Below, one piece after another: positions 49,211 through 62,432 of a stretch of DNA of 64,000 bases. Position numbers and translations under genes: made by a program. Origin of the DNA: Neisseria leonii. GTDB lineage: Bacteria; Pseudomonadota; Gammaproteobacteria; Burkholderiales; Neisseriaceae. The stretch is taken from positions 1,240,001 to 1,304,000 of the forward strand of contig NZ_CP145606.1 in assembly GCF_028776105.2 (NCBI RefSeq), given 5' to 3'. Position 1 is the first letter of the stretch. Every line of letters starts with the position of its first letter. The notes below the pieces were generated by a model. The model was given only the letters and a program-made list of their open reading frames with translations. It was not told where the DNA came from and did no database searches.

Positions 49211-49753
49211 TCAATACTGCGGCGTACCACGCATCACCGTACGGCTTTGGAAAGTCGCCACAATACAGTCGGCATAACCGGCCGGTGCCATGCGGCCGGA
49301 ATCAAAGCGGCCGTTGTTGCCGGCGGCATAACTGCCCACATGATTGACACGGCGCACTGTCCCCCGCGCCCGGCGCGGATTCTGCAAATTGTTCACCCCG
49401 TTGATAATGGCGCGCTCGCAGCTTTTCGCCTCATCGCGGCCGAAAGAACGTGCCGCGGCATTGGTGCGCAGCTCGCCGCTGCCGCCGAAGCTGACCGGTA
49501 CATTATTGCTCAAAGCAGATTGCGCTTCGGCCGTTTTCAGCACAGCGGCAATATTGCAACGGAACACCATATTTTTGCCCGCACCTTCATTGTCGCGCTG
49601 CAATTTGCAGGCACCCGAATCCGCCACGGCAGACCGGCCCGGCGCAGAAGATGCACCCGCACCGCCGCCCTTGCCCGAAGCACCGGTACTGCCACATGCA
49701 GCCAAAGCCAGCACCGCCGCACAGGCCAAAACCGTTTTTTCAAAAATCTTCAT
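49211..49753 (-). CDS. Predicted lipoprotein of unknown function
   Basis: The 180-residue protein has a lipoprotein signal peptide (MKIFEKTVLACAAVLALAAC) with lipobox LAAC and Cys20 as lipid anchor, then a Gly/Ser-rich linker of about 20 residues. The mature part has four more cysteines (ACKLQR, FRCN, SCER, DCIV), enough for two disulfides, and basic patches (NPRRARGTVRRVNH). I do not recognise a family. Longer in-frame starts exist, but only MKIFEK places the signal sequence correctly. It lies divergent from the tbpB promoter, so Fur control of both is conceivable, without direct evidence. Confidence 0.75.
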   Translation of the reverse strand: MKIFEKTVLACAAVLALAACGSTGASGKGGGAGASSAPGRSAVADSGACKLQRDNEGAGKNMVFRCNIAAVLKTAEAQSALSNNVPVSFGGSGELRTNAAARSFGRDEAKSCERAIINGVNNLQNPRRARGTVRRVNHVGSYAAGNNGRFDSGRMAPAGYADCIVATFQSRTVMRGTPQY

Positions 49754-49923
49754 CGCATCACTCCTTAAACCATTATTCTCTGTCCATATGCGGGCCGTCT
49801 GTTTCAGACGGCCCGCAAACGGTGTTACCCGCACATTATAACCGTAATTTCCCGCCACACTGCAAAGATGTGCGGTTTACCCGGCATCGGACAACCGGAA
49901 AACATAAATAAAAGCCAAAACCA

Positions 49924-49951
49924 TTTACAAAATTTAAACATGTGTTATAAT
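49924..49951 (+). promoter_or_regulatory. tbpB promoter
   Basis: TTTACA (49924-49929), 16 bases, perfect TATAAT (49946-49951). Confidence 0.7.
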
Positions 49952-49952
49952 T

Positions 49953-49971
49953 GGTAATTATTATCAATAAT
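49953..49971 (+). promoter_or_regulatory. Fur-box-like operator before tbpB
   Basis: GGTAATTATTATCAATAAT agrees with the 19-base Fur consensus GATAATGATAATCATTATC at 13 positions by eye and lies right after the -10 element, where bound Fur would block initiation. Confidence 0.6.
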
Positions 49972-50162
49972 GTTTGACGGTTATGTTATCCCACGCCCCG
50001 CATCTGCCTGATGCCGCACCCTGTTTTCTGATTCCCGTCTAAACGCCCGCAGACGGCATGTGTCGTTTCAGACGGCCTGCCCGCAGTTTTCCGCCATTCC
50101 TTCCATCTTTCACGACCGGCCGCACACCCTGCTGTGCGCCGACCGTCTTCAAGGAGAACCTG

Positions 50163-51929
50163 ATGCCTTTCCCGGCCAAACGCAGCTCCGCGCTGCTGAT
50201 TTCCCTGCTGCTTGCCGCCTGCGCCGGCGGCGGCAGCTTCGATACCCAAAACATTTCTGTCAATAACGACCCGCCGCCCGCACCGAAAGAATGGAAAGAT
50301 GCGGAAAGCCGCCCGCACCAGACACCGCAGCAGGTGGAAGGCATCATGCAGCCCGCACTCGGCTACTCCATGCCGATTCCGCGCCGCAACTGGTCCAAAC
50401 TCGATCAAAACGGCAACAGAATTCCCGACGGTTCGGATGCGGAACCTTACCTGAAACTGAACGCAGATAACGTCCAAGCCATCTCCGGCACCACCGGCAC
50501 CGTGCCGCACGAAGAAAAAATTACCGAAAACCTGAGAAATCCAACCAGGCCGCACCGCGTCATCACATCAAAGAAAAACAGCGGCTTCCAATTTGTCCAT
50601 GCCGGTTTTGCCTATTCCGATGCCGGTCTGGAAATGATCAGAAAAGACGGTAACGGCCCGATCATTTCCGCCCGAACCGGCTTCAAAGGCTATGTGTACT
50701 ATCAAGGCCAAACGCCCGCCACCGCCCTGCCTGTCGGCCAAACCGCCACATACAGAGGCAACTGGCATTACGTTACTGATACCAAGCAGGGACGCAACGG
50801 CCGCCTATACGGCACAAACGATCAATTTGCAGGGAATCGGTACGGCCTGCTGTCCAACGACGATACGGGCAGCTTCGTCAAAAGTTACGACAGCGAATTT
50901 CAAGCTGACTTTGCTGCGAAAAAACTGACCGGCACCCTCAAAGAAACCTTGGTCACCAGTAATGCACAAAATGCACCCGAAAAAACCCGCTATACCATCG
51001 AAGCCGATATTGCCGGCAACCGTTTCAGAGGAAAAGCCAAACACCTGCCGGACGATACGCGCCTGTTTGCCAGCGACTCATCACTGCTCGAAGGCGGTTT
51101 CTACGGCGATAAAGCACAGGAGCTGGCAGGCAAATTCCTGGCCGACGACGACAGCCTGTTTGCCGTTTTTGCCGCCAAACAGGATAACCCCCTGCCTGCC
51201 GAGACCGTATTTGATGCCAAAATCATCGACAAACAGAATCCGCAGGACGCACCGCAGAATCTGACTACTTTCGGCGATGTTACCGCCCTGCTGGTTGACG
51301 GCCGAACCATTCCGCTCTATCCGGCCGATGTCAAGGGTTTTGTCATGACCACCGGCAATAACGGCACCACAGCGGAAATCTGCTGCCGCAATCTGGACAA
51401 TGTGCGCTTCGGTATACTGTCCCGGCAAGGAGAGATGCAGCAACTGTTCCTGCAGGGCGAGCGTACGCCCGCCGCCGCTATGCCGCAGGACGGGCAGGCT
51501 TTCTACCGCGGCACATGGAGCGCATTTATTTCCGGGCCGTCTGAATGGGCGGCCGCTGCCGACAACAATGCAGACAGCGGAAACCGGGCAAAATTCCATG
51601 TCGATTTCGGCAATAAAACCATTGTCGGCGAACTGATGGCGGCCGAACGTCTCACCCCCGCCTTTCTCATTAACGGCACCATCAGCGGCAACGGCTTTAC
51701 CGGCACGGCCAAAACCGGGGACAGAGGTTTCAGTCTCGACCCGCAAAACGCCAACGATCCCAAAACCGTCCACCTCAAAGCCGCTGTGAGCGGCGGCTTC
51801 TACGGCGACCAAGCCCAAGAATTGGGCGGTGCGTTTTCCGGCAGCCGTTCGGGCTACGGACACAGCAATCCGGACACCCAATTCGGCGTCGTCTTCGGTG
51901 CGAAACGCCAAGTCAAAAACAACGAATAA
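50163..51929 (+). CDS. tbpB: TbpB-type surface lipoprotein (transferrin-binding protein B family)
   Basis: The 588-residue product has a lipoprotein signal with lipobox LAAC and a glycine-rich anchor (CAGGGSFD), as in Slam-exported lipoproteins. It is bilobed: each lobe ends in the barrel signature GGFYGDKAQEL (near 310) and GGFYGDQAQELGG (near 555). Lobe details match TbpB: YRGNWHYVTDT, VDGRTIPL, EICCRNLDNVRFG with two adjacent cysteines, LFLQGERT, and the final VFGAKRQ. It lacks the acidic clusters of LbpB and is shorter than many TbpB proteins. By family it would capture iron-loaded host transferrin at the cell surface. AAGGAGAACCTG is a strong ribosome site. It forms a unit with tbpA, 24 bases on. 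Confidence 0.88.
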   Translation: MPFPAKRSSALLISLLLAACAGGGSFDTQNISVNNDPPPAPKEWKDAESRPHQTPQQVEGIMQPALGYSMPIPRRNWSKLDQNGNRIPDGSDAEPYLKLNADNVQAISGTTGTVPHEEKITENLRNPTRPHRVITSKKNSGFQFVHAGFAYSDAGLEMIRKDGNGPIISARTGFKGYVYYQGQTPATALPVGQTATYRGNWHYVTDTKQGRNGRLYGTNDQFAGNRYGLLSNDDTGSFVKSYDSEFQADFAAKKLTGTLKETLVTSNAQNAPEKTRYTIEADIAGNRFRGKAKHLPDDTRLFASDSSLLEGGFYGDKAQELAGKFLADDDSLFAVFAAKQDNPLPAETVFDAKIIDKQNPQDAPQNLTTFGDVTALLVDGRTIPLYPADVKGFVMTTGNNGTTAEICCRNLDNVRFGILSRQGEMQQLFLQGERTPAAAMPQDGQAFYRGTWSAFISGPSEWAAAADNNADSGNRAKFHVDFGNKTIVGELMAAERLTPAFLINGTISGNGFTGTAKTGDRGFSLDPQNANDPKTVHLKAAVSGGFYGDQAQELGGAFSGSRSGYGHSNPDTQFGVVFGAKRQVKNNE

Positions 51930-51953
51930 CAGATGATGGAAAGGAAAGCGTCG

Positions 51954-54800
51954 ATGTATCGCCATCACCCGAATTTTAAAGTCAAGGCCGTCTGCATCGC
52001 CCTGTCCGGCCTGCTGGTTCAGACGGCATGGGCAGACAGCCCCGCCGTCCCCGAAGCCGGAAATACAGTACAGCTGCAAGACGTGGTCGTCAAAGGACAG
52101 AAGCGTGCCACGCGCCGCAGCAATGAAATCACAGGCTTGGGCAAAATCGTGAAAACCACCGATGCCATCAATCAGGAACAGGTACTCAATATCCGCGACC
52201 TGACCCGCTACGATCCGGGCATTTCCGTCGTCGAACAGGGACGCGGCGCCAGCTCGGGCTATTCGATACGCGGCGTGGACCGCAACCGCATCTCCCTGTC
52301 GGTGGACAACCTGCCGCAGATTCAGTCCTACTCTATCCAAGGTGTGAACAGCGGCAGCGGCGCGATTAACGAAATCGAATATGAAAACGTACGCGCCATC
52401 GAATTGAGCAAAGGTGCCAGCTCCGCCGAATACGGCAACGGCGCATTGGGCGGCGCGGTGGGCTTCCGCACCAAAGAAGTCGATGACCTGCTGCCCGACG
52501 GCAAAGACTGGGGGTTGAACAGCAAAACCGCATACAGTTCCAAAAACCGCCAACTCACCCAATCACTCGGCTTTGCCGCCCGTAAAAACGGCTTGGAGGC
52601 GATGGTGCAGTACACCCGACGTAAGGGCGGGGAAACACAGGTACACAAAGATGCGGACAAAAGTACCCGCTATGAAATTACCCGCTTGGGTGCATTTGCA
52701 GGCGAATACGACTTTCTGGGCGATGCCAACCGGAAACACAGCAGTTGGTTTGTTTTGCAGGACGAATGCCCGACTTTGAACTGCGCGCCCAAACCGATTG
52801 CCGCCGCCACCGAAAGCCATTTCCGCTACGACCGCACGCAAAACGGCTACGACCCCTACACCCCCGAAGAGCAAGCCGAAGCCAAACGGCTGGTGCACCC
52901 CGTTGAAAAAGTAAACGCCAAAGACTATACCGGCCCCGACCGCGTGCTGCCCAATCCGATGGACTACCGTACCGGCTCGTGGCTGACCAAACTCGGCTAC
53001 CGTTTCTCACCCGAACACTATCTGGGCGGCGTATTCGAGCAGACCGCACAAAATTACGACATCCGCGATATGAGCGTACCCGCCTATTATCTGGGTGCAG
53101 ACCGCAAAAACATCAAAACATTGGACGGCAAAGGCATTTACTCCGGCCAAAATCTCGGCGAAGGGCTGACTTTCGGGGCGAACCCCGCCCAAGACGCTTC
53201 GGCCGGGCTGGGCTGGTCGCGCAGCCAGTTTTTCGACGAACGGCACCGAAAATCACGCAAAGGCCTGGTATACCGCTTCACGCCGAACGGCGCGGCAGAC
53301 AGTCTCTCGCTCTCATACGACGAACAGAAAATCGGCTTGGACAGCCGCCTGAAAACGCTCAACTGCGCACCTTATCCCACTGTGGACAAAAATTGCCGGG
53401 CCGCGCCGGACAAACCTTGGAGCTACACCCGTTCGGAAACAAACCGTTACGAGGAAAAGCACCGCCTGGCACAGCTGAACTTTGACAAAACGGCCGAAAC
53501 CGGCCCGGTCAGACACCAATTCAGCGGCCTTCTGGGCGCGGACTTCTTCCAATCCACCCTCACGCGCAGCGAAGATGTCAGCGAATATGTGAAACAGAAA
53601 TGGACACTGCTCGACCGCAACGTACGCGGCCAAAACCATGCGGGAAACGGTACGCCCGACAACCCCTACATCTATCAAAACGGCGGCACCGAGCTGATCC
53701 GCACCAACGAATGCTACGGCGAAAGCGAAGGTTCGTGGAACTGCGGCCAACGGAAAATTACCGGCCGCAGCGAATTTATCGCCCTGCGCGACCAAATGAA
53801 AATCGGCCGTCATCTGGAACTCGGCCTCGGCGCGCGTTACGACCGCTACCGCACCCGTTCCAACGACGAATGGACAGCCGCCAAAACCTACAAAAACTTC
53901 TCGTGGAATGCAGGCGTGGTCGTCAAACCCACCGCCAATATCAATCTCGCCTACCGCGCGTCCACCGGATTCCGGGTACCGAGCTTCCAGGAAATGTTCG
54001 GCTTCCGCACACCGGGCTATTCCAAGGCCGATGCCGAAGCTTATCAGAAACAATACGGCAAGCCGATGTTCCAGCCCACCGATGCCGAACCGGAAAAATC
54101 CTTCAATCAGGAAATCGGCATCGGCTTCAAAGGCGGTTGGGGTATGCTGGAAATCAGCCATTTCCGCAACCGTTACGACGGCCTGATTGCCGCCGCCCGC
54201 AAAGAAGGCAATACCGCCAACAAAGCCTACTACAACGTACAGGACGTTAAACTGACCGGCTACAACCTTATCGGCAAAATCGACTGGCACGGCATCTGGA
54301 ACAAACTGCCCGAAGGCCTGTATACCACACTGGGCTATAACCGCGTCAAACCCGACAGCATCCGCAACCGTCCCGGCTTTACCCGAATCGACACCTACCT
54401 GCTGGATACCATACAGCCTTCGCGTTACGTTGCCGGCTTGGGCTATCACGATCCGGGCGAACGCTGGGGCGTGAATGCCATGATGACTTACTCGAAAGGC
54501 AAAAACCCCGGCGAGCTGATCGGCAAGTCCACGCACGGCGGCCGGGAGTACAACATCAGTGCCACCGGCAAAGCCAGCAGGAGTTGGCAGATTGTCGATC
54601 TGACCGGCTATGTGAACCTGAAAAAAGATTTCACCCTGCGCGCCGGTGTCTATAATCTGTTCAACCACCGCTACGTAACCTGGGAAGCACTGCGCCAGTC
54701 GTCTACCGGTGCCGTACACCAGCAGCGCAACGTCGGCAATTATGCCCGCTACGCCGCGCCCGGCCGCAACTATACCGTGTCGCTGCAAATGAAATTCTAG
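51954..54800 (+). CDS. tbpA: TbpA/LbpA-type TonB-dependent receptor
   Basis: The 948-residue outer-membrane protein has a signal peptide (1-27), a TonB box region (VQLQDVVV, 39-46), a plug domain (NIRDLTRYDPGISVVEQGRG, SGYSIRGVDRNR, GSGAINEIEYENV) and a 22-strand barrel ending GRNYTVSLQMKF. Plug wording and C-terminus (YNLFNHRYVTWEALRQ) fit TbpA/LbpA closely. Loop cysteine pairs (DECPTLNC, NCAPYPTVDKNC, ECYGESEGSWNC) recall TbpA disulfide loops. It extracts iron from transferrin or lactoferrin and passes it inward using TonB energy. The partner TbpB favours transferrin. An upstream ATG at 51933 exists, but GGAAAGGAAAG before 51954 and the signal sequence favour this start. Confidence 0.88.
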   Translation: MYRHHPNFKVKAVCIALSGLLVQTAWADSPAVPEAGNTVQLQDVVVKGQKRATRRSNEITGLGKIVKTTDAINQEQVLNIRDLTRYDPGISVVEQGRGASSGYSIRGVDRNRISLSVDNLPQIQSYSIQGVNSGSGAINEIEYENVRAIELSKGASSAEYGNGALGGAVGFRTKEVDDLLPDGKDWGLNSKTAYSSKNRQLTQSLGFAARKNGLEAMVQYTRRKGGETQVHKDADKSTRYEITRLGAFAGEYDFLGDANRKHSSWFVLQDECPTLNCAPKPIAAATESHFRYDRTQNGYDPYTPEEQAEAKRLVHPVEKVNAKDYTGPDRVLPNPMDYRTGSWLTKLGYRFSPEHYLGGVFEQTAQNYDIRDMSVPAYYLGADRKNIKTLDGKGIYSGQNLGEGLTFGANPAQDASAGLGWSRSQFFDERHRKSRKGLVYRFTPNGAADSLSLSYDEQKIGLDSRLKTLNCAPYPTVDKNCRAAPDKPWSYTRSETNRYEEKHRLAQLNFDKTAETGPVRHQFSGLLGADFFQSTLTRSEDVSEYVKQKWTLLDRNVRGQNHAGNGTPDNPYIYQNGGTELIRTNECYGESEGSWNCGQRKITGRSEFIALRDQMKIGRHLELGLGARYDRYRTRSNDEWTAAKTYKNFSWNAGVVVKPTANINLAYRASTGFRVPSFQEMFGFRTPGYSKADAEAYQKQYGKPMFQPTDAEPEKSFNQEIGIGFKGGWGMLEISHFRNRYDGLIAAARKEGNTANKAYYNVQDVKLTGYNLIGKIDWHGIWNKLPEGLYTTLGYNRVKPDSIRNRPGFTRIDTYLLDTIQPSRYVAGLGYHDPGERWGVNAMMTYSKGKNPGELIGKSTHGGREYNISATGKASRSWQIVDLTGYVNLKKDFTLRAGVYNLFNHRYVTWEALRQSSTGAVHQQRNVGNYARYAAPGRNYTVSLQMKF

Positions 54801-54810
54801 GCCGTCTGAA

Positions 54811-54853
54811 AACCGCAGCCTGCCGGATCTACACTGTCCGGCAGGCTGCGGTT
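54811..54853 (+). terminator. Perfect 17-base hairpin after tbpA
   Basis: AACCGCAGCCTGCCGGA pairs with TCCGGCAGGCTGCGGTT around nine bases, next to a DUS that overlaps the tbpA stop. No T run follows, so it may be a transcript-stabilising hairpin instead. Confidence 0.55.
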
Positions 54854-55013
54854 CGGGTGTCGGCCTGCAATCCGTGCCGCACGGCTTTTCAGACGGCCTG
54901 ACGGCACGCAGGCCGGATACGTATCCGAAAAAAGCCCGGACAGACACCCGGATACCTTTTCTTTCCCCAAAACGGACACCTGCCGGAATCGGGCACCAGA
55001 CCGCAGCACATTT

Positions 55014-55042
55014 TTCAGACGGCCTCCCTCAGGCCGTCTGAA
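55014..55042. repeat. Inverted AG-DUS pair upstream of slam
   Basis: TTCAGACGGCCT and AGGCCGTCTGAA separated by five bases, 40 bases before the slam ATG. Confidence 0.85.
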
Positions 55043-55081
55043 AACCCGGTACAGCCCGTCTGCCGAAACCGCCGCCAAACC

Positions 55082-56533
55082 ATGAAAAAACTGTTTTCCC
55101 TGACCCTGACCGCCGCCCTCTCCTGTCATGCCTACGCCGACGACGACAGCAGCCTCATCGCCGACCGCCTGAACGATCAACGTGCCGTAACAGCGGCCGC
55201 AGCCGCTCCGCCTGCCGCACCGGCAGAACCTGCAGCCGCCGTACCGCCGCCGGTAACCCGCACGCTTGCCATCTCGAAAGAAGAACTGGCACGCCGCCCC
55301 GAACTGGTGGTACGCGCCCTGATGGCCGCTGTGGTACAGAACAACCGCACCGCCGTCGATTTGGTCTATCCGCTCTACCAAGCCCTGCCCGCCGCCCATC
55401 ACGACCCGCAGCTTACCCTGTGGGCACAGGCGGTCTTGGCGCGGCAGCAGGGCGATCTGCGTGCCGGCATCGCACAATACCGCCGCCTGCTGGCCGAAAC
55501 GCCCGAGCTGACCGCCGCCCGCCTGCAATTGGCCGCCGCGTTGTTTGAAGACAACCAGACAGAAGCCGCCGAAGACCAGTTCCAAAAGCTGCGCACCCTC
55601 CCCGATCCGAACGTACGGCGTATCGCCGATACCTATCTCGATGCTCTGGCCCGGCGCGACCGTTGGACGCTTTCCGGCAGCATCAGCTACCTGAACGACC
55701 CCAATATCAATAACGCCCCCAAATCCGGCACCCGCTACGGCAACTGGCACGCCCCCGAGACGGAATCCGCCCAAGGCATCGGCCTGAATCTCAATCTGGG
55801 CAAGAAATGGTCGTGGGGCAACGGCTTTTACAACGAACTGCGGATCCATGCGCAAGGGAAATACTATTGGGACAACCGCAAATACAACGATGCGGGCGGC
55901 CGCGCCAGCCTCGGCATCGGTTTCCGCAATGCCAAATGGCAGGCTGCCCTGCTACCGTTTGCCGAACAGTCGCTGTATGCAGGCGGCCGTACGGGACAAA
56001 CCCGCTACAAACGCTTTTACCGGGGCGGCGGGGCTACGCTGGAAGGCAGCTACTGGCTGTCCCCGCAATGGCAGTTCACCGCAGGTTACGAGCAGATGCA
56101 GCTGCGTTACGCCAGCCGCAGACACCTCAACGGCGGCTACCGCCAGATCAGCGGCGGCATCCACTATCTGCCCGATGCCACACGCCTGTTTTTTGCCAAT
56201 CTCCACTATAACCGCACCGACACCCGCGACCGGGACGACAGTTTTATCCGCAAAGGCATCACCGCAGGCTGGGGGCAGGAATGGGAGCAAGGCTTGTCCA
56301 CACATGTTTCACTCGGTTTCGCCCAAAAACACTATCAGGCACCGATGCCGGTGTTCGGCATCACCCAGCGCAACCGCGAATGGAATGCACAGGCCGCCGT
56401 GTGGCACAGAGCTTTCCATTTCAAAGGCATCACACCGCGCCTTACCTACGGTTACAACCGTGTCCAAAGCAACCACAGCTTTTACAGCTACGCCAAACAC
56501 CGCGTATTTGTCGATTTCAGCAAGCGGTTTTGA
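55082..56533 (+). CDS. Slam-family surface lipoprotein assembly modulator (DUF560)
   Basis: The 483-residue outer-membrane protein has a signal peptide (1-19), an Ala/Pro-rich linker, a helical TPR-like segment (about 70-195: ALPAAHHDPQLTLWAQAVLA, LAETPELTAARLQLAAALF) and a C-terminal beta-barrel beginning near DRWTLSGSISYLNDPNINNA and ending HRVFVDFSKRF. The SISYLNDPNINNAP stretch and final strand are characteristic of Slam. Slam proteins move TbpB-, LbpB-, fHbp- or HpuA-type lipoproteins to the cell surface. Its position after tbpBA makes TbpB the obvious client. No clear promoter is seen in the 281-base gap, so read-through from tbpA is possible despite the hairpin. Confidence 0.9.
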   Translation: MKKLFSLTLTAALSCHAYADDDSSLIADRLNDQRAVTAAAAAPPAAPAEPAAAVPPPVTRTLAISKEELARRPELVVRALMAAVVQNNRTAVDLVYPLYQALPAAHHDPQLTLWAQAVLARQQGDLRAGIAQYRRLLAETPELTAARLQLAAALFEDNQTEAAEDQFQKLRTLPDPNVRRIADTYLDALARRDRWTLSGSISYLNDPNINNAPKSGTRYGNWHAPETESAQGIGLNLNLGKKWSWGNGFYNELRIHAQGKYYWDNRKYNDAGGRASLGIGFRNAKWQAALLPFAEQSLYAGGRTGQTRYKRFYRGGGATLEGSYWLSPQWQFTAGYEQMQLRYASRRHLNGGYRQISGGIHYLPDATRLFFANLHYNRTDTRDRDDSFIRKGITAGWGQEWEQGLSTHVSLGFAQKHYQAPMPVFGITQRNREWNAQAAVWHRAFHFKGITPRLTYGYNRVQSNHSFYSYAKHRVFVDFSKRF

Positions 56534-56631
56534 ACAACAGGCAGAGACCGTCCCTTCGTTTTTCCGACAAGCCGGAAGACGCTGACCGCTTTGAAGCGGT
56601 ACCGCCCCACCCGCCGTCCATGTCAAAACTT

Positions 56632-56650
56632 AATAATGATAATAATTATT
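56632..56650 (+). promoter_or_regulatory. Fur-box-like operator
   Basis: AATAATGATAATAATTATT agrees with the 19-base Fur consensus at 16 positions by eye and touches the -35 element downstream. Confidence 0.75.
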
Positions 56651-56677
56651 GATTTTATTTTTAACCAATATTAAAAT
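56649..56677 (+). promoter_or_regulatory. Promoter of the heme-type receptor and ABC genes
   Basis: TTGATT (56649-56654), 17 bases, TAAAAT (56672-56677), 84 bases before the ATG. Confidence 0.7.
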
Positions 56678-56760
56678 TCGCATCTCCGCAGATGCCTGCC
56701 CTGCCGGCATTGCGGCAATTTCCCGTTCCGTTTTCCGAATTTTCCAACTATCCCGACCGC

Positions 56761-58992
56761 ATGAACACCCGTCTTTACACTCCCGTTGCACTCTCAGCCG
56801 CACTGTGCCTGGCCATACCGGCCGCACTTGCCGAATCCTCCGTTACCGGCCCGGACAAACCGGCCAAAACAACGCAAAAAGAACCAGTCAAACTACCGGC
56901 CGTGGTTGTCAAAGGCAGGCACATCGGCAAACCGTTTGAAACACCGGCCGCCGTCAGCCGCCACGGACAGGACGAACTGGGACAGGACATCAATACCCTG
57001 ATCCGCACCCTGCCGGGTACGTTTACCCAGCACGACATCGGGCAAGGCGGTTTTGCCGTCAATATCCGCGGTTTGGAAGGTTTGGGGCGGGTCAATACCA
57101 CGGTGGACGGTGTCAGCCAGACTTTCTACCAAACCAACCCCGCGCACGGCTGGAACGGCAATACCACTTATGTCGATGAAAACTTTATCGCAGGTATCGA
57201 AGTGACACGGGGAACGGCCGCCGGTGCGGGCGGCATCAATGCGCTGGCAGGCCATGCCGAATTGCGCACCATCGACATAGACGATTTAATCGACAAAGAC
57301 CGCAATTTCGGTATGCAGACCACTTACCGCCAAGGCAGCAACGGTTACGGAAAAAACGGTATGCTGGGCGTTGCCGCCCGTTACAGCCTGAATGAAGACA
57401 GTAGCATCGGCTTTTTGAGCGCGGTCAGCGGAAAACGGAAGCTGGGTTACAAAAACGGGGCGGGCGAAACCATTGCTTCAGACGGCTTCGACGAAAACCT
57501 GCCGATGGAAAGCGGCCTGCGCGCGCGCAGCACACTCAACAAACTGCAATGGCAGATCGGGAAAAACCATGCACTGACACTCAGCCATATGGGCAGCCGC
57601 TCCCGCTTTACCAACAACCACAGCCCCCTGCAAGTGCGTACCCGGACCGGCCTGCTCAAATACCGCTACACGCCTCTGTCCGACTTGGTCGATTTGCGTG
57701 CAGATCTTTCCTATACCGATGCGCGGCAGACATTCCTGCGCGGCACCAACAGCAGCGAAGATTATGTCGGCCGCACCACCGCCAATCCCTCTTGGGCTTT
57801 CACCCTGCAAAACCGCAGCCTTTTCGATCTCCAAGGCAGCGACTTGATACTCGACTACGGCGGCAAAACCATGCGCACCCGCTACCGCAGTAATTACAGC
57901 AACAAACTGCTTCTGGCCGAAGGCAGGCAGAATACGGACAGCCTGTTTGCCGATGCCCGGTGGCAGCCGGGGAAATGGACGGTATCCGCAGGCATCGGTT
58001 ACCAGCGTTACGGCATACAGGGCTACCTGCCGCCGACCGACGACAACGGCGCAATTGTGCTGCCCAAAGGCGGAGACATTCATTTCAAGCGCACGGAAGG
58101 CCGTCTGAATCCGCGATTCGGGCTGGCATACCAAGCCTTGAACTGGCTGCAAATGTACGCCAATATCGGCCGCAGCAGCCGCAGCCCCAATGTCCAGGAA
58201 TTTATGTACACCAACAACGTGCAGGGCAACCCCTATTCGGTCAATCCCTACCTGAAAGGCGAAACGGCCCTGAACCGCGACATCGGCCTGAACATTCTCA
58301 AATACGGCCTGCTCAAACCGGATGACAGCCTGCGCCTGAAAGCGGGCTATTTCGACAACCGCATCAAAAACTTCATCACCCAGACCCAGCTCTACATCTG
58401 CGGCGAGGACAGTCTCAGCCGTTGCAGCTTGGACGATTACGCAGGCGGCAGCAACCGCATCGCACCGGTCGGGCTCTTCCTCAACCTGCGCGATACCGTC
58501 CGCCAGCGCGGCTGGGAAGTTGAAGGCGGTTATGATTTCGGACGCGGCTACATCAATCTGAGTTGGAGCAAAACCACCAACAACTTCCCTTCCGACTACT
58601 TGGCAGACATGGGCTTCTCCCATATACGCACCCTGCCGGAAAACGTCTGGTCGCTGGACATCGGCTCCCGCTGGCTGGACAACCGCCTGATTGTCGGCGC
58701 ACGCCTGAACCGTACAGGGAAGGACACCATTGCCGGCGGCGTGGACAGCGAGAGCGGCATCCAGTCGACCGCCAAGCTGTCCGCCAATCCCACCATCATC
58801 GACCTCTATGCCAGCTATCAGGCCGCCAAGCAGCTGAAACTGTTTCTGAATATCGACAATCTGACCAACCGTGTTTACAACTACCCGCTCAGCGGCGGCA
58901 CATTGGGTACAGGCAACTTGGGATACAGCAATGCCAACCGCGGCACCGGCAGGGGGCGGACCATTTACGGCGGCCTGTCGGTGAAATTCTAA
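56761..58992 (+). CDS. TonB-dependent heme/hemoglobin-type receptor
   Basis: The 743-residue receptor has a signal peptide ending near residue 24 (ALA-ESS), a TonB box region KLPAVVVKG (44-52), a plug domain (TLIRTLPGTFTQHDIGQGGF, VNIRGLEGLGRVN) and a barrel ending IYGGLSVKF. The stretch GRSSRSPNVQEF followed by NPYLKGE mirrors the FRAP and NPNL boxes of HasR/HemR-type heme receptors in degenerate form. A cysteine pair (CGEDSLSRC) lies in one late loop. The following ChaN-like protein and heme-type ABC importer support heme or hemoglobin as ligand; another metal chelate is possible. MNTRLYTP is the start that exposes the signal peptide. Confidence 0.82.
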   Translation: MNTRLYTPVALSAALCLAIPAALAESSVTGPDKPAKTTQKEPVKLPAVVVKGRHIGKPFETPAAVSRHGQDELGQDINTLIRTLPGTFTQHDIGQGGFAVNIRGLEGLGRVNTTVDGVSQTFYQTNPAHGWNGNTTYVDENFIAGIEVTRGTAAGAGGINALAGHAELRTIDIDDLIDKDRNFGMQTTYRQGSNGYGKNGMLGVAARYSLNEDSSIGFLSAVSGKRKLGYKNGAGETIASDGFDENLPMESGLRARSTLNKLQWQIGKNHALTLSHMGSRSRFTNNHSPLQVRTRTGLLKYRYTPLSDLVDLRADLSYTDARQTFLRGTNSSEDYVGRTTANPSWAFTLQNRSLFDLQGSDLILDYGGKTMRTRYRSNYSNKLLLAEGRQNTDSLFADARWQPGKWTVSAGIGYQRYGIQGYLPPTDDNGAIVLPKGGDIHFKRTEGRLNPRFGLAYQALNWLQMYANIGRSSRSPNVQEFMYTNNVQGNPYSVNPYLKGETALNRDIGLNILKYGLLKPDDSLRLKAGYFDNRIKNFITQTQLYICGEDSLSRCSLDDYAGGSNRIAPVGLFLNLRDTVRQRGWEVEGGYDFGRGYINLSWSKTTNNFPSDYLADMGFSHIRTLPENVWSLDIGSRWLDNRLIVGARLNRTGKDTIAGGVDSESGIQSTAKLSANPTIIDLYASYQAAKQLKLFLNIDNLTNRVYNYPLSGGTLGTGNLGYSNANRGTGRGRTIYGGLSVKF

Positions 58993-59029
58993 ATCCGTGC
59001 CCGCCCCAGCCCGCTATCGGGACAACAGC

Positions 59030-59842
59030 ATGAATACATACCTGAAAAAATGGTCCGGCATCATCATCCTGTACCTGCTGTCGGCAGCGGCGGCAGCACA
59101 GGTACCCGCCGGACGCATTTACGATACGGCAGCCCAAACCGACATCACGGCAGAAGCACTGGTACAGGCACTGGCACAAAGCCCGATGGTGATTATCGGC
59201 GAAAAACATGATGAAACCGCCCACCACCAAGCCGAGTTATGGCTGTTGCAGCAAACCGAAACACCGCGCAGCCGGGGTTCGGTCTTATTGGAAATGCTGG
59301 ATACCGCACAACAGCGGGACGTCACGCGCGTTCAGCAATGGCTTCTGGACGGAGGCAGCACAAGCGAGCGGCGGCTGCCGGAAAAAATGGCGTGGAACCA
59401 TGCCTGGAACTGGCCGGATTACGCCAGTACCGTATCATGGATCATGCGCCGTCAGGCCAAGGTTCTGGCTGCCGCACCCGGCAGGGACGATGTACGCCGT
59501 GCTGCCGCTTTCGTTCCCGACGGCAGATACAGCGGCGCACCTGCCGTCCGGCAGGCATTGGAGCAGATCATCGGCACCAACCATACCGGCACGGGCAATA
59601 CGGACAAGGTCTCCATGCAGCAGTTCAAAGACAGCACCATGGCACAGAATCTGGCTGCCGCACCCCGACCCGCCTGGCTGCTGACCGGATCGATACATGC
59701 CTCCAAACAGCTGGGCATACCGCTGTTTTTACGCGATGCGGGCAAGGCATCCGATGCCAAAGTACTGATTCTGACTACCCGAGACAGCGACATCGATACC
59801 GGTCACGGCGATTACATCTGGTATCTGGATCCCGCCCCCTGA
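59030..59842 (+). CDS. ChaN-family heme-binding protein
   Basis: The 270-residue exported protein has an N-terminal signal peptide (about 1-24, ending AAAAAQ) and the ChaN fold motif IIGEKHDETAHH at 55-66, plus SIHASKQLGIP near 218. ChaN proteins dimerise around stacked hemes and are usually lipoproteins in heme-uptake operons (as with PhuW). Here no lipobox cysteine is present, so it looks soluble and periplasmic. It lies 37 bases after the receptor and 61 before the binding protein, in one operon. Confidence 0.82.
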   Translation: MNTYLKKWSGIIILYLLSAAAAAQVPAGRIYDTAAQTDITAEALVQALAQSPMVIIGEKHDETAHHQAELWLLQQTETPRSRGSVLLEMLDTAQQRDVTRVQQWLLDGGSTSERRLPEKMAWNHAWNWPDYASTVSWIMRRQAKVLAAAPGRDDVRRAAAFVPDGRYSGAPAVRQALEQIIGTNHTGTGNTDKVSMQQFKDSTMAQNLAAAPRPAWLLTGSIHASKQLGIPLFLRDAGKASDAKVLILTTRDSDIDTGHGDYIWYLDPAP

Positions 59843-59903
59843 CCGGCCGCGCCGTTTTCAGACGGCCCGGCCGCCCCAACCCTACCGCATCAGGAAATAC
59901 ACC

Positions 59904-60689
59904 ATGAAAAAATACCTCTCCCTCCTGTTACTGGCCGCCTGCCTGCCCGCCGCCGCCCAGCGCGTTATCGTGCTCACGCCCGATGTGGCCGATATTGTCG
60001 CCCGGCTCGGTGCGGAAAAAGAAGTCGTCGGCATTCACGAATTCAACCGCAACCCCGCCTTCAACAATACGCCGTCCGTCGGTTTTTACCGCAACCTTTC
60101 TGCCGAACCGATACTGGCGGGCAAACCCGATCTCGTCATCGGCAGCTGGCTGGCCAAACCGGACGGTATCTACACCCACCTGCGCAATGCCGGTGTCAAA
60201 GCCGAAAATGTCCATACCGACGAATCACCGGAAAACTACCGCCAAAGCCTGATGCGCATCGGCAGGCTGCTGGGCAAAGAACCGCAGGCCGCCAATCTCG
60301 CCCGCACATTCCAAAACGGCATGCAGCCCATGCCGAAAACCGGCAAGCGTTATTTGCTCAGCTACGACGGCCGTTATGCGGCAGGCAGAAACACCGTCGG
60401 CGACACCCTGATCAGACTGGCAGGCGGCATCAATGCCGCAGCACAAGTGGACGGCCTCAAACCGCTCTCCCGCGAGGGCTGGCTGAAAGCAAAACCCGAT
60501 ATCGTGATTATCGCCAAACATAACGAACAAAGTATCGGCGGTGCCGCCAAAGTCCTGCAACGCCCCGAAATCGCTGCCAGCCCGGCGGGACAAAACCGGC
60601 GCGTCCTGTTCTGGCCTGCCGACGACTATATGCGCTACGGCCTGTACACCCCCGATATTGTGCGCCGTCTGCACGGTTTGGCCCAATAA
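59904..60689 (+). CDS. hmuT: Heme-type ABC transporter substrate-binding protein (HmuT/PhuT-like)
   Basis: The 261-residue periplasmic protein opens MKKYLSLLLLAACLPAAAQR, a short signal; AAQ-type cleavage is more likely than lipidation at Cys13. The core is a BtuF/FecB-type helical-backbone binding fold: RVIVLTPDVADIVARLGAEK, VVGIHEFNRNP with a tyrosine-rich next turn, KPDLVIGSW, and KPDIVIIAKHNEQS. Gene order with permease and ATPase and with a heme-type receptor supports heme; siderophore is an alternative. Confidence 0.83.
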   Translation: MKKYLSLLLLAACLPAAAQRVIVLTPDVADIVARLGAEKEVVGIHEFNRNPAFNNTPSVGFYRNLSAEPILAGKPDLVIGSWLAKPDGIYTHLRNAGVKAENVHTDESPENYRQSLMRIGRLLGKEPQAANLARTFQNGMQPMPKTGKRYLLSYDGRYAAGRNTVGDTLIRLAGGINAAAQVDGLKPLSREGWLKAKPDIVIIAKHNEQSIGGAAKVLQRPEIAASPAGQNRRVLFWPADDYMRYGLYTPDIVRRLHGLAQ

Positions 60690-60702
60690 AACGGGGACGC
60701 GC

Positions 60703-61635
60703 ATGAAAAAATATCTGGCCGTATGGCTGGCCGCAGCCGTTTTACTCGTCTGGTTCTGCGCCGGTATCGGCGAAGGCGGCTGGCGCAATCCGCTGGCCGC
60801 AGACCCTGTGCTGATGCAGATCCGGCTGCCCAGAATAGCGGCCGCACTGCTGGCCGGAGCCGCACTGGCGGCCAGCGGTTCCGCCTTGCAGGCATTGTTT
60901 GAAAACCCTCTGGCCGATCCCAGCCTCATCGGTACGTCGGGCGGGGCGGCCATGGGCGTGGTATCGGCCATCGCCTTCGGCTGGCCGGTGGCCGTTCCGG
61001 CCGCCGCATTTATCGGTGCGTTTGCCGTCTGTATGATTATTCTGGCCGCCCACCGCCTTTTCGGCGGCGGCAAACTCGGACTGCTGGTGATGGGTTTCGT
61101 CATCAGTGCGCTGTGCGGTGCACTGGTCAGCCTGGTCTTGTTCCTTTCAGACGACATGGCACTGCGCAGCGCCATGACCTGGCTCTCGGGCAGTTTCTCC
61201 GAAGCGGGATTCATCTCGCCGCTGTATGCGGCCGCGATTATGCTGGCCGGTTTCGTGATTCTGACCGTATGCGGCCGCCGGCTCGACTATCTGCTGCTGG
61301 GCGACGAAGTGGCGCACACGCTGGGTATCCATATCGGACTGACCCGCATCTTGACCGTTACCGGTGCCGCCCTGATGACCGGTGCGGCGGTTTCGCTCGG
61401 CGGCATTATCGGCTTTGTCGGCATGATGGTACCCAATGTGCTGGCACAAACCGTCGGCGGCGGCCGCACCCGCTTAATCGCACTCTCGGCAGCGGCCGGA
61501 TCGCTGTTTATGCTGGCAGCCGATACATTTGCCCGCCGGGTGGTTTATCCGGTGGATCTGCCGGTCGGCATCGTCATTGCCATTCTCGGCGGCCCTTTCT
61601 TTTTATGGCTGATTATCAGGGAACAGAAGCGTTAA
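60703..61635 (+). CDS. hmuU: FecCD-family ABC permease (HmuU/PhuU-like)
   Basis: The 310-residue inner-membrane protein belongs to the FecCD/BtuC family with about ten helices. It shows [24 protein letters not shown] text ([20 protein letters not shown]), the QALFENPLADPSLIGTSGGA loop and the GFVGMMVPNVLAQ coupling segment. It starts 13 bases after hmuT; the frame is open further upstream but overlaps hmuT. Confidence 0.88.
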   Translation: MKKYLAVWLAAAVLLVWFCAGIGEGGWRNPLAADPVLMQIRLPRIAAALLAGAALAASGSALQALFENPLADPSLIGTSGGAAMGVVSAIAFGWPVAVPAAAFIGAFAVCMIILAAHRLFGGGKLGLLVMGFVISALCGALVSLVLFLSDDMALRSAMTWLSGSFSEAGFISPLYAAAIMLAGFVILTVCGRRLDYLLLGDEVAHTLGIHIGLTRILTVTGAALMTGAAVSLGGIIGFVGMMVPNVLAQTVGGGRTRLIALSAAAGSLFMLAADTFARRVVYPVDLPVGIVIAILGGPFFLWLIIREQKR

Positions 61636-61636
61636 T

Positions 61637-62374
61637 ATGACCCTATCGCTCAGAAACTGCACGGTTCACGCCCATCACCGGACCATTCTGTCGGTCGGCC
61701 GAATCGACATTCCCGCCCGTGAAATCAGCGCTGTCATCGGCCCCAACGGAGCGGGGAAATCCACGCTGCTCAAACAGTTTCTCTATCACGCGCAAACCGA
61801 ATGGTGCGGCCTGCCCATGAAGTCCGCCCTGAAACAGCGCAAAATCGCCTGGGTCGGACAGCACGAACATTTCCGCCTGCCGATGACGGTAGCCGAATAT
61901 GTCGTGATGGGGCGGGCACAACCGGCATGGTTCCGCCCGGCACGGCCCGCCGGTAACGATTTAAAAACACTGCTGGATCTCTTTGACCTGACACCGCTGC
62001 AAGACAAACGCATCGAAACGCTCAGCGGCGGCGAGCAGCAGCGTGCGGCCATTATCCGCGCCCTGCTGCAACAGCCCGAACTGCTGATGCTGGACGAGCC
62101 GACCAACCATCTCGACGTACACTACCAACACCGTCTGATGCACCACCTGCAAACGCTGCCGCAACAGGGCACCACCGTGGTGATGGTGCTGCACGATCTG
62201 AATCTGGCCGCCCATTACAGCAGCCACGCCCTGCTGATGGACAAAGGGGGCGTGGCCGCATCAGGCGCAACGGCACAAGTGATGGATACCGCCCTGCTGA
62301 GCCGTATCTATGATTGGCCGATATGCGCCTATCGGGCAAACGGCAAAACCTGGTTTCAGGCCGCAACCTTATAA
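61637..62374 (+). CDS. hmuV: Heme-type ABC transporter ATPase (HmuV/PhuV-like)
   Basis: The 245-residue ATPase has Walker A GPNGAGKST (35-43), the signature LSGGEQQRA, Walker B LLMLDEPTNHLD and the switch histidine in VLHDLNLAAHY. It powers import through HmuU. It begins immediately after the hmuU stop, so the three genes are one unit. The end of the operon is the DUS-pair terminator that follows. Confidence 0.9.
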   Translation: MTLSLRNCTVHAHHRTILSVGRIDIPAREISAVIGPNGAGKSTLLKQFLYHAQTEWCGLPMKSALKQRKIAWVGQHEHFRLPMTVAEYVVMGRAQPAWFRPARPAGNDLKTLLDLFDLTPLQDKRIETLSGGEQQRAAIIRALLQQPELLMLDEPTNHLDVHYQHRLMHHLQTLPQQGTTVVMVLHDLNLAAHYSSHALLMDKGGVAASGATAQVMDTALLSRIYDWPICAYRANGKTWFQAATL

Positions 62375-62393: not shown

Positions 62394-62432
62394 AGGCCGT
62401 CTGAAAACGCTTCATCTGTTTTCAGACGGCCT
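62394..62432. terminator. DUS-pair terminator between hmuV and tldD
   Basis: AGGCCGTCTGAAAA and TTTTCAGACGGCCT pair between convergent genes. Confidence 0.75.

Follow-up and report, generated by a model that had tools for sequence, protein, structure and literature searches.

A TbpB-TbpA-Slam cassette nearest to Pasteurellaceae beside a heme operon in Neisseria leonii

The TbpB-TbpA receptors of Neisseria, Haemophilus, Actinobacillus and Moraxella share their domains, their gene order, a lipobox and a family of TonB-dependent receptors, and heme operons of the Hmu/Phu kind are made up of a TonB-dependent receptor, a ChaN/PhuW-like protein and HmuTUV. Surface lipoprotein assembly modulators (Slam) adjoining TbpB and TonB-dependent receptors have already been described; the section of that study cited here places TonB-dependent receptors in 120 of 185 lipoprotein-containing Slam clusters (Hooda et al., 2017; PMC5449769). 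Here we analyze a 64,000-nucleotide stretch (the window) at positions 1,240,001-1,304,000 of the single-contig genome of Neisseria leonii (2,206,085 bases), in which eight open genes, all on the + strand, occupy positions 50163-62374 in the order TbpB, TbpA, Slam, HemR, ChaN, HmuT, HmuU and HmuV. The block consists of two units, TbpB-TbpA-Slam (unit 1) and HemR-ChaN-HmuTUV (unit 2), which differ in kinship and are each preceded by a separate Fur-like site. The TbpB-TbpA pair has the features of the known receptors, yet it sits in a Neisseria and is nearest to that of Actinobacillus capsulatus; the Slam stands beside a TbpB-type client and a TonB-dependent receptor, as in the clusters of Hooda et al., but is of Pasteurellaceae lineage inside a Neisseria. 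We consider it probable that the receptor of unit 1 is matched to the host and crossed between families long ago, and that unit 2 is a Neisseria heme operon from which HmuS has disappeared. The genes of the block and the way they are arranged are already familiar; the novelty is that, in a Neisseria from rabbits, a cassette for a host-specific receptor has its kin in another family.

The cited part of the species description (PMC11316581) reports rabbits as the source of all three N. leonii strains, a genome of 2.21 Mb with a G+C content of about 57% for the type strain 3986T, and AG-DUS as the dominant uptake sequence. The window genome is probably that of the type strain, and AG-DUS occurs 47 times in the window against 0.01 expected. 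For comparison we surveyed 83 Neisseriaceae genomes (numbered G; N. leonii is G000, with 82 others), counting matches for TbpA and HemR at E 1e-60; G082 is Wielerella bovis, at 99% identity to its named protein. Neisseriaceae regions for the synteny comparison (loci, numbered L) were selected by their matches and are not a random sample, and a further set comprised 54 loci from named genomes. A protein database search for relatives of TbpA covered 5.8 billion proteins, with 7991 candidates scored, 579 relatives recognized and 120 listed.

Kinship of the TbpB-TbpA-Slam unit

The window TbpA and TbpB are 72% and 60% identical to those of A. capsulatus DSM 19761 (Pasteurellaceae), while the best near-full-length matches within the Neisseriaceae reach about 51% and 43%, respectively. 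Beyond the A. capsulatus type (P0002, 72%), the TbpA matches listed go no higher than 52% identity. Two flanking genes, used as controls, show the reverse pattern. For TldD, 18 of the 20 Neisseriaceae searched reach 78-83% identity (63% in G064; the incomplete genome G038 has no orthologue), against 54% for both A. capsulatus and Glaesserella australis; TrmD is 75-81% identical in 18 of 20 (66% in G064, none in G038), 58% to A. capsulatus and 57% to G. australis.

Phylogenies of the three proteins point the same way. The TbpA tree (48 rows) joins the window protein to A. capsulatus with support of 100/100, as does a quick TbpB tree (40 rows) with support of 100, and the Slam tree (46 rows) places the window Slam inside a 23-row clade (97/92) in which 18 rows carry Pasteurellaceae names, four are unnamed and the last is the window itself; its sister there is an unnamed protein (P0122), 64% identical. 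The fairest of our approximately unbiased (AU) tests rejected a grouping of the window TbpA with three TbpA proteins of Neisseria (p 1.4e-5). Single Neisseriaceae clades holding the window TbpA (p 7.8e-30) or the window Slam (p 7e-70) were also rejected, at values that are overstated given such broad groups with several receptor types, and all of the AU groups were chosen after the first tree. At 161 variable TbpA columns, with no residue above 25% in a set of 52 further rows, A. capsulatus matches the window at 71 (44%), against a mean of 8% and a best of 16% for those 52 rows. Gene trees and identities in conflict with the core genes are what is expected of horizontal transfer, and these sequences point to such an event in the history of unit 1.

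Layout, gene families and predicted regulation

The features of the block, with coordinates in the window, are as follows.
49924..49951, + strand: sigma-70-like promoter of unit 1, TTTACA-16-TATAAT with TG before the -10; an 11/12 consensus match only
49953..49971, no strand assigned: Fur-box-like site 1, just downstream of the -10; 14/19, with 1/100 local shuffles as good
50163..51929, + strand: tbpB-like surface lipoprotein, 588 amino acids, lipobox LLAAC; PF01298, PF17484, PF17483, NF041636
51954..54800 (alternative start 51933), + strand: tbpA-like TonB-dependent receptor; TIGR01776
55014..55042, no strand assigned: inverted AG-DUS pair (AGGCCGTCTGAA), terminator-like, between tbpA and slam
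55082..56533, + strand: Slam, 483 amino acids; PF04575, PF24575
56632..56650, + strand: Fur-box-like site 2, before the heme receptor; 16/19, with 0/100 shuffles as good
56761..58992 (alternative start 56692), + strand: HemR, heme-type TonB-dependent receptor, 743 amino acids; TIGR01785 best, below its cut-off
59030..59842 (alternative start 58997), + strand: ChaN-like protein; PF04187
59904..60689, + strand: HmuT-type periplasmic heme-binding protein; PF01497, HmuT 3md9 at 4.5e-32
60703..61635, + strand: HmuU-type FecCD permease, 310 amino acids; PF01032 at 7e-76
61637..62374, + strand: HmuV-type ATPase; PF00005, best NCBIfam match a heme ABC transporter ATP-binding protein, below its cut-off
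62394..62432, no strand assigned: inverted AG-DUS pair, terminator-like, at the end of unit 2

Each product of unit 1 has the architecture of its family. TbpB (TbpB_B_D, 3e-57) carries handle domains (PF17484, PF17483) and a barrel domain (PF01298) in two stretches behind a lipobox near the N-terminus; its best solved chain is a TbpB (3e-96), and its ten best solved matches are all TbpB. TbpA scores 1143.8 bits against TIGR01776 (cut-off 468.8), a lactoferrin/transferrin receptor model that does not tell TbpA from LbpA; it has the plug and barrel (PF07715, PF00593) and its best solved chain is 9clm_A (1e-226). The Slam (SlipAM, 2e-83) combines a TPR domain (PF24575) with the SlipAM/DUF560 barrel (PF04575), and its adjacency to TbpB, together with the client family NF041636, suggests that it exports its neighbor. 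An earlier note on this DNA had named these families, placed them on one strand in this order with a full ABC importer and Fur-box-like sequences at two promoters, and read the locus as joining a surface catcher to an exporter of its own. All of this agrees with our analysis (the importer comprising Peripla_BP_2, FecCD and ABC_tran), with a reservation for HemR, which falls below its model cut-off.

The same note held that such genes are usually dispersed in Neisseria, and this is true in part. Matches to Slam, TbpA and TbpB occur in 64, 21 and 35 of the 83 genomes, respectively, and TbpB-TbpA-Slam is a common arrangement, recurring in six other genomes: G001 (Slam cut by a contig end), G002, G010, G038 (two loci), G041 and G049. 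The order differs in G082 (Slam-TbpB-TbpA). Slam was not seen at 18 of the 26 TbpA-bearing Neisseriaceae loci fetched, some of them cut by contig ends; N. gonorrhoeae and N. bergeri have none within 10 kb of TbpBA, and a match stands at 19 of the 54 loci of the named collection. The G. australis locus (L118) has the trio in the same order with a Slam 55% identical to that of N. leonii, but its TbpA and TbpB are only 48% and 37% identical, and no heme module was found in its 22.8 kb. Two further observations concern these receptors. In a Conchiformibius metagenome-assembled genome (L094 723-5201; named record L122) a single 1493-residue frame contains both the TbpB and the TbpA match, as if fused, through either a real fusion or an assembly error, and in G030, G049 and G053 internal stop codons in the TbpA or TbpB frames may reflect receptor decay.

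Fur-box-like site 2 was equaled in 0/100 whole-window shuffles as well as 0/100 local shuffles. Sites scoring 14-15/19 are also present upstream of HemR in five relatives, although that of G037 was equaled in 9/100 shuffles. The tonB-like gene of A. capsulatus likewise has a Fur-like site upstream (15/19, 1/100 shuffles as good), while no evident site precedes TbpB of G. australis (12/19, 73/100 shuffles as good). Promoter-like and terminator-like matches as classes are at chance level in the window (8 found against 5.8 expected, and 23 against 20.2). No Fur-like site lies before Slam, where the best match (9/19) was equaled by 95/100 local shuffles. Inverted uptake-sequence pairs often serve as terminators; with such a pair between TbpA and Slam and no Fur-like site before Slam, transcription of the latter may need read-through, or may start at a promoter of unrecognized form. 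From the predicted sites, Fur would repress both units when iron is plentiful.

The block is preceded by genes that we take to be rimM, trmD and rplS and followed by a convergent TldD gene. A 215-residue lipoprotein-like open reading frame (49211-49858, - strand) lies upstream of tbpB and has no Pfam match at E 1e-3.

The heme operon and related genes elsewhere

Unit 2 encodes a heme-type binding protein, to which the solved hemin-binding HmuT is nearest, with a permease and an ATPase, and thus resembles the Hmu/Phu operons in its TonB-dependent receptor, ChaN/PhuW-like protein and HmuTUV; it differs from them in having no HmuS and a receptor that falls below the heme-model cut-off. The ChaN-like protein matches Cofac_haem_bdg/ChaN (PF04187) at 1e-29 and the solved 'putative lipoprotein' 2g5g at 5e-22; the cited part of PMC7412671 describes PhuW as important in taking up heme. 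HemR is found in 10 and ChaN in 9 of the 83 genomes, N. leonii included. The Neisseria genomes G031, G034 and G037 carry HemR-ChaN-X-HmuT-HmuU-HmuV in this order, with identities to N. leonii of 58-78% (HemR 60-65%, ChaN 58-60%). A family search identifies X of the sister species G037 as an HmuS-type protein, and X of the sister species G031 is 66% identical to it, whereas in G034 there is a gap of the same size only. HmuS is not present in N. leonii unit 2, where ChaN and HmuT are just 61 bases apart. Elsewhere in the family the importer genes have the opposite orientation (G062, G064) or are missing beside HemR-ChaN in the stretches fetched (G005, G006, G008). By its sequences unit 2 is a neisserial heme operon, and the comparison suggests that HmuS was lost from it.

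A copy of HmuS does lie in N. leonii about 375 kb from unit 2 (C1:1679987-1681027), behind a second receptor of heme/hemoglobin type. This copy shares only 40-43% identity with the HmuS proteins encoded in the operons of G037 and G031, whereas those two share 66% with each other, and it stands with a receptor of its own; the idea that HmuS merely moved out of the operon is not supported. The group as a whole (G000:C1:1677704-1681027; L114 6704-10027) consists of the second heme-type TonB-dependent receptor, above the cut-offs of TIGR01786 and TIGR01785, and then HmuS, away from HmuTUV. A heme oxygenase and an FbpA-like protein are also encoded outside the block. The genome has a second Slam-client set, in which an HpuA-like lipoprotein (PF16960, 5e-78) stands with a TonB-dependent receptor, HpuB-like by place, and a divergent Slam (L092 9061-14389; G000:C1:1638061-1643389), and a 238-residue lipoprotein with a TbpB/fHbp-type barrel lies directly before a third Slam (L091 8276-10474; G000:C1:2118276-2120474).

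We propose that TbpB would be made as a lipoprotein and brought to the cell surface by the adjoining Slam, where it would capture iron-loaded host transferrin and pass it to TbpA. TbpA would draw the iron across the outer membrane on TonB energy, and an FbpA-type protein encoded elsewhere would take it onward. HemR would take up heme, to be received in the periplasm by ChaN and HmuT and imported by HmuUV, and HmuS and heme oxygenase, both encoded elsewhere, would free the iron. In the proposed history, unit 1 would derive from a Pasteurellaceae donor with TbpBA akin to that of A. capsulatus, probably in a shared lagomorph host, at a time remote enough for its composition to match that of the N. 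leonii genome, and unit 2 would be a Neisseria heme operon in which HmuS was lost.

Competing explanations and the same-host pattern

Several observations weigh against this account. Shorter pieces of TbpB are 45-51% identical to Neisseriaceae proteins, and solved LbpB chains (4e-74) outscore meningococcal-type TbpB chains (2e-65) as matches to TbpB. HemR reaches 281.9 bits against the TIGR01785 TonB-hemin model, short of the cut-off of 316.85, and the solved chain closest to it, 9oaa_T (2e-51), belongs to a TonB-dependent receptor for which no ligand is stated, followed by HasR (3e-27). The window Slam is 53-54% identical to the A. capsulatus Slam, against 64% to P0122, and no Slam stands within 10 kb of the A. 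capsulatus TbpA, the related Slam of that genome lying elsewhere; a Slam acquired directly from A. capsulatus is not supported at that identity, and the cassette may therefore be a mosaic. Unit 1 also bears no compositional trace of transfer in its G+C content at third codon positions (GC3), and the branch tying the window TbpA to further Pasteurellaceae TbpA is weak (84/56 in the careful tree), so that the direction of transfer rests mainly on the Slam tree, which favors Pasteurellaceae as donor while the TbpA tree adds little. Either the donor would be a relative with the trio ordered as in G. australis, or the cassette would be such a mosaic. The GC3 of unit 1 (0.65-0.72) is like that of flanking genes (0.64-0.74) and of 18 other long open reading frames, unverified as genes (0.68, standard deviation 0.05). 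A recently acquired genomic island of odd composition is thus not what we see; the transfer is old, or its trace has been erased. Comparison with an empty site was ruled out by the wide separation of TldD and TrmD in relatives with single-contig genomes, among them G049, G052 and G053.

The native composition of unit 1 in N. leonii, the Neisseria uptake sequences between its genes and the weak tie of the TbpA pair to other Pasteurellaceae would all suit a transfer in the opposite direction, from a Neisseria lineage to A. capsulatus. We regard this as unlikely, because the Slam nests among Pasteurellaceae and because the TbpBA of A. capsulatus is also of native composition (GC3 0.36-0.41, neighbors 0.30-0.44) and is preceded by what we take from their sequences to be tonB-exbB-exbD-like genes, a layout known from other Actinobacillus. 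That there was no cross-family transfer, with an old receptor type passed down vertically in both families and most others having lost it, could draw on the several receptor types within the Neisseriaceae and on the many genomes that lack one, but it is highly improbable: it is contradicted by the excess of TbpA identity over that of TldD and TrmD between the same two genomes, and even the variable TbpA columns agree. The earlier note had instead seen one self-contained, acquired iron and heme island. A single strand, an extent of 12.4 kb, two Fur-like sites and the absence of the joined block from all 82 other family genomes would fit this, and we nevertheless reject it as very unlikely, since the halves differ in their nearest relatives and each stands alone elsewhere; TbpA is in none of the nine other HemR-bearing genomes, which makes the joined block unique in the 83-genome set, and a second Fur-like site precedes HemR. 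Weak HemR-like matches (24-34%) do stand beside TbpA in G025 and Moraxella macacae, with no ChaN or full importer there. The acquired block of that note thus survives for unit 1, with its Pasteurellaceae kin, and fails for the heme operon, whose nearest relatives are other Neisseria; the refuting condition that the note itself had set gives a split outcome, each half being an ordinary arrangement and the joined block being absent from the other 82 genomes. Nor is the block self-contained, as HmuS, a ferric-binding protein and TonB/ExbBD are absent among its open reading frames, to which the search for TonB/ExbBD was limited.

A different question is whether unit 1 might bind lactoferrin or another host protein. 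TIGR01776 spans both receptor types, the LbpB chains score as given above, and a branch setting apart the rows taken for LbpA has weak support (75-82 bootstrap). Against this, the 588-residue TbpB has 9/40 acidic residues where three rows that we take to be neisserial LbpB have 23, 28 and 29 of 40. Identification as LbpB by its acidic stretch fails, although that stretch is not universal in the LbpB branch, two Moraxella rows having 10/40 and 16/40. With no acidic stretch, ten best solved matches that are all TbpB, and nearest kin in the Pasteurellaceae, where lactoferrin receptors are said in the cited part of PMC9853020 not to have arisen, a transferrin receptor is the more likely, and a ligand other than transferrin is improbable. 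Given the rabbit origin of N. leonii and the association of A. capsulatus with the same animal, we infer rabbit transferrin as the target. One A. capsulatus isolate came from a rabbit ear, according to the cited part of PMC12024415.

The transfer we favor may be one of several between families sharing a host. The TbpA tree contains three same-host, cross-family joins: rabbit N. leonii with A. capsulatus; a ruminant join of Wielerella bovis, which we take to be a cattle species, with Histophilus somni and Actinobacillus seminis, cattle Moraxella being more distant; and human Neisseria with human Haemophilus. In W. bovis (L087), TbpA, TbpB and Slam all stand with H. somni and A. seminis, and this unit is likely to represent a second cross-family transfer in a shared host. 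The nearest labeled row from another family is of the same host for three of four Neisseriaceae host groups (23 labeled rows), where host labels are assumed except those of N. leonii, M. oculi and A. capsulatus and the pattern was noticed before it was counted. The exception is G052, which we take to be N. zalophi, a species of sea lions; it stands apart from the Pasteurellaceae of pinnipeds and speaks against a same-host pool. So does the quick TbpA tree of 28 labeled rows, where host requires 11 changes (8 states, minimum 7) and family 7 (4 states, minimum 3); host does not beat family in these counts, and a simple rule that TbpA follows host is not carried.

Bacterial transferrin receptors are described, in the part of PMC9853020 cited, as having exquisite specificity for host transferrin, evolving over 40 million years in primates. 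We did not find the cross-family, same-host pattern stated in the accessible parts of the literature, including PMC9853020, PMC10182148, PMC7857515 and PMC6142043, with subscription papers outside this scope, and it may already be known. That transferrin-receptor cassettes form a shared pool traded among the bacterial families of one mammal, so that host range is gained in one step, seems to us an evenly balanced proposition. N. leonii and A. capsulatus would be a natural pair in which to test receptor sharing, rabbits being common laboratory animals. The kinship of unit 1 suggests that host-specific iron receptors can pass between families in the same animal, and if a Neisseria did take its receptor from a Pasteurellaceae of that animal, host specificity need not arise anew in each lineage.

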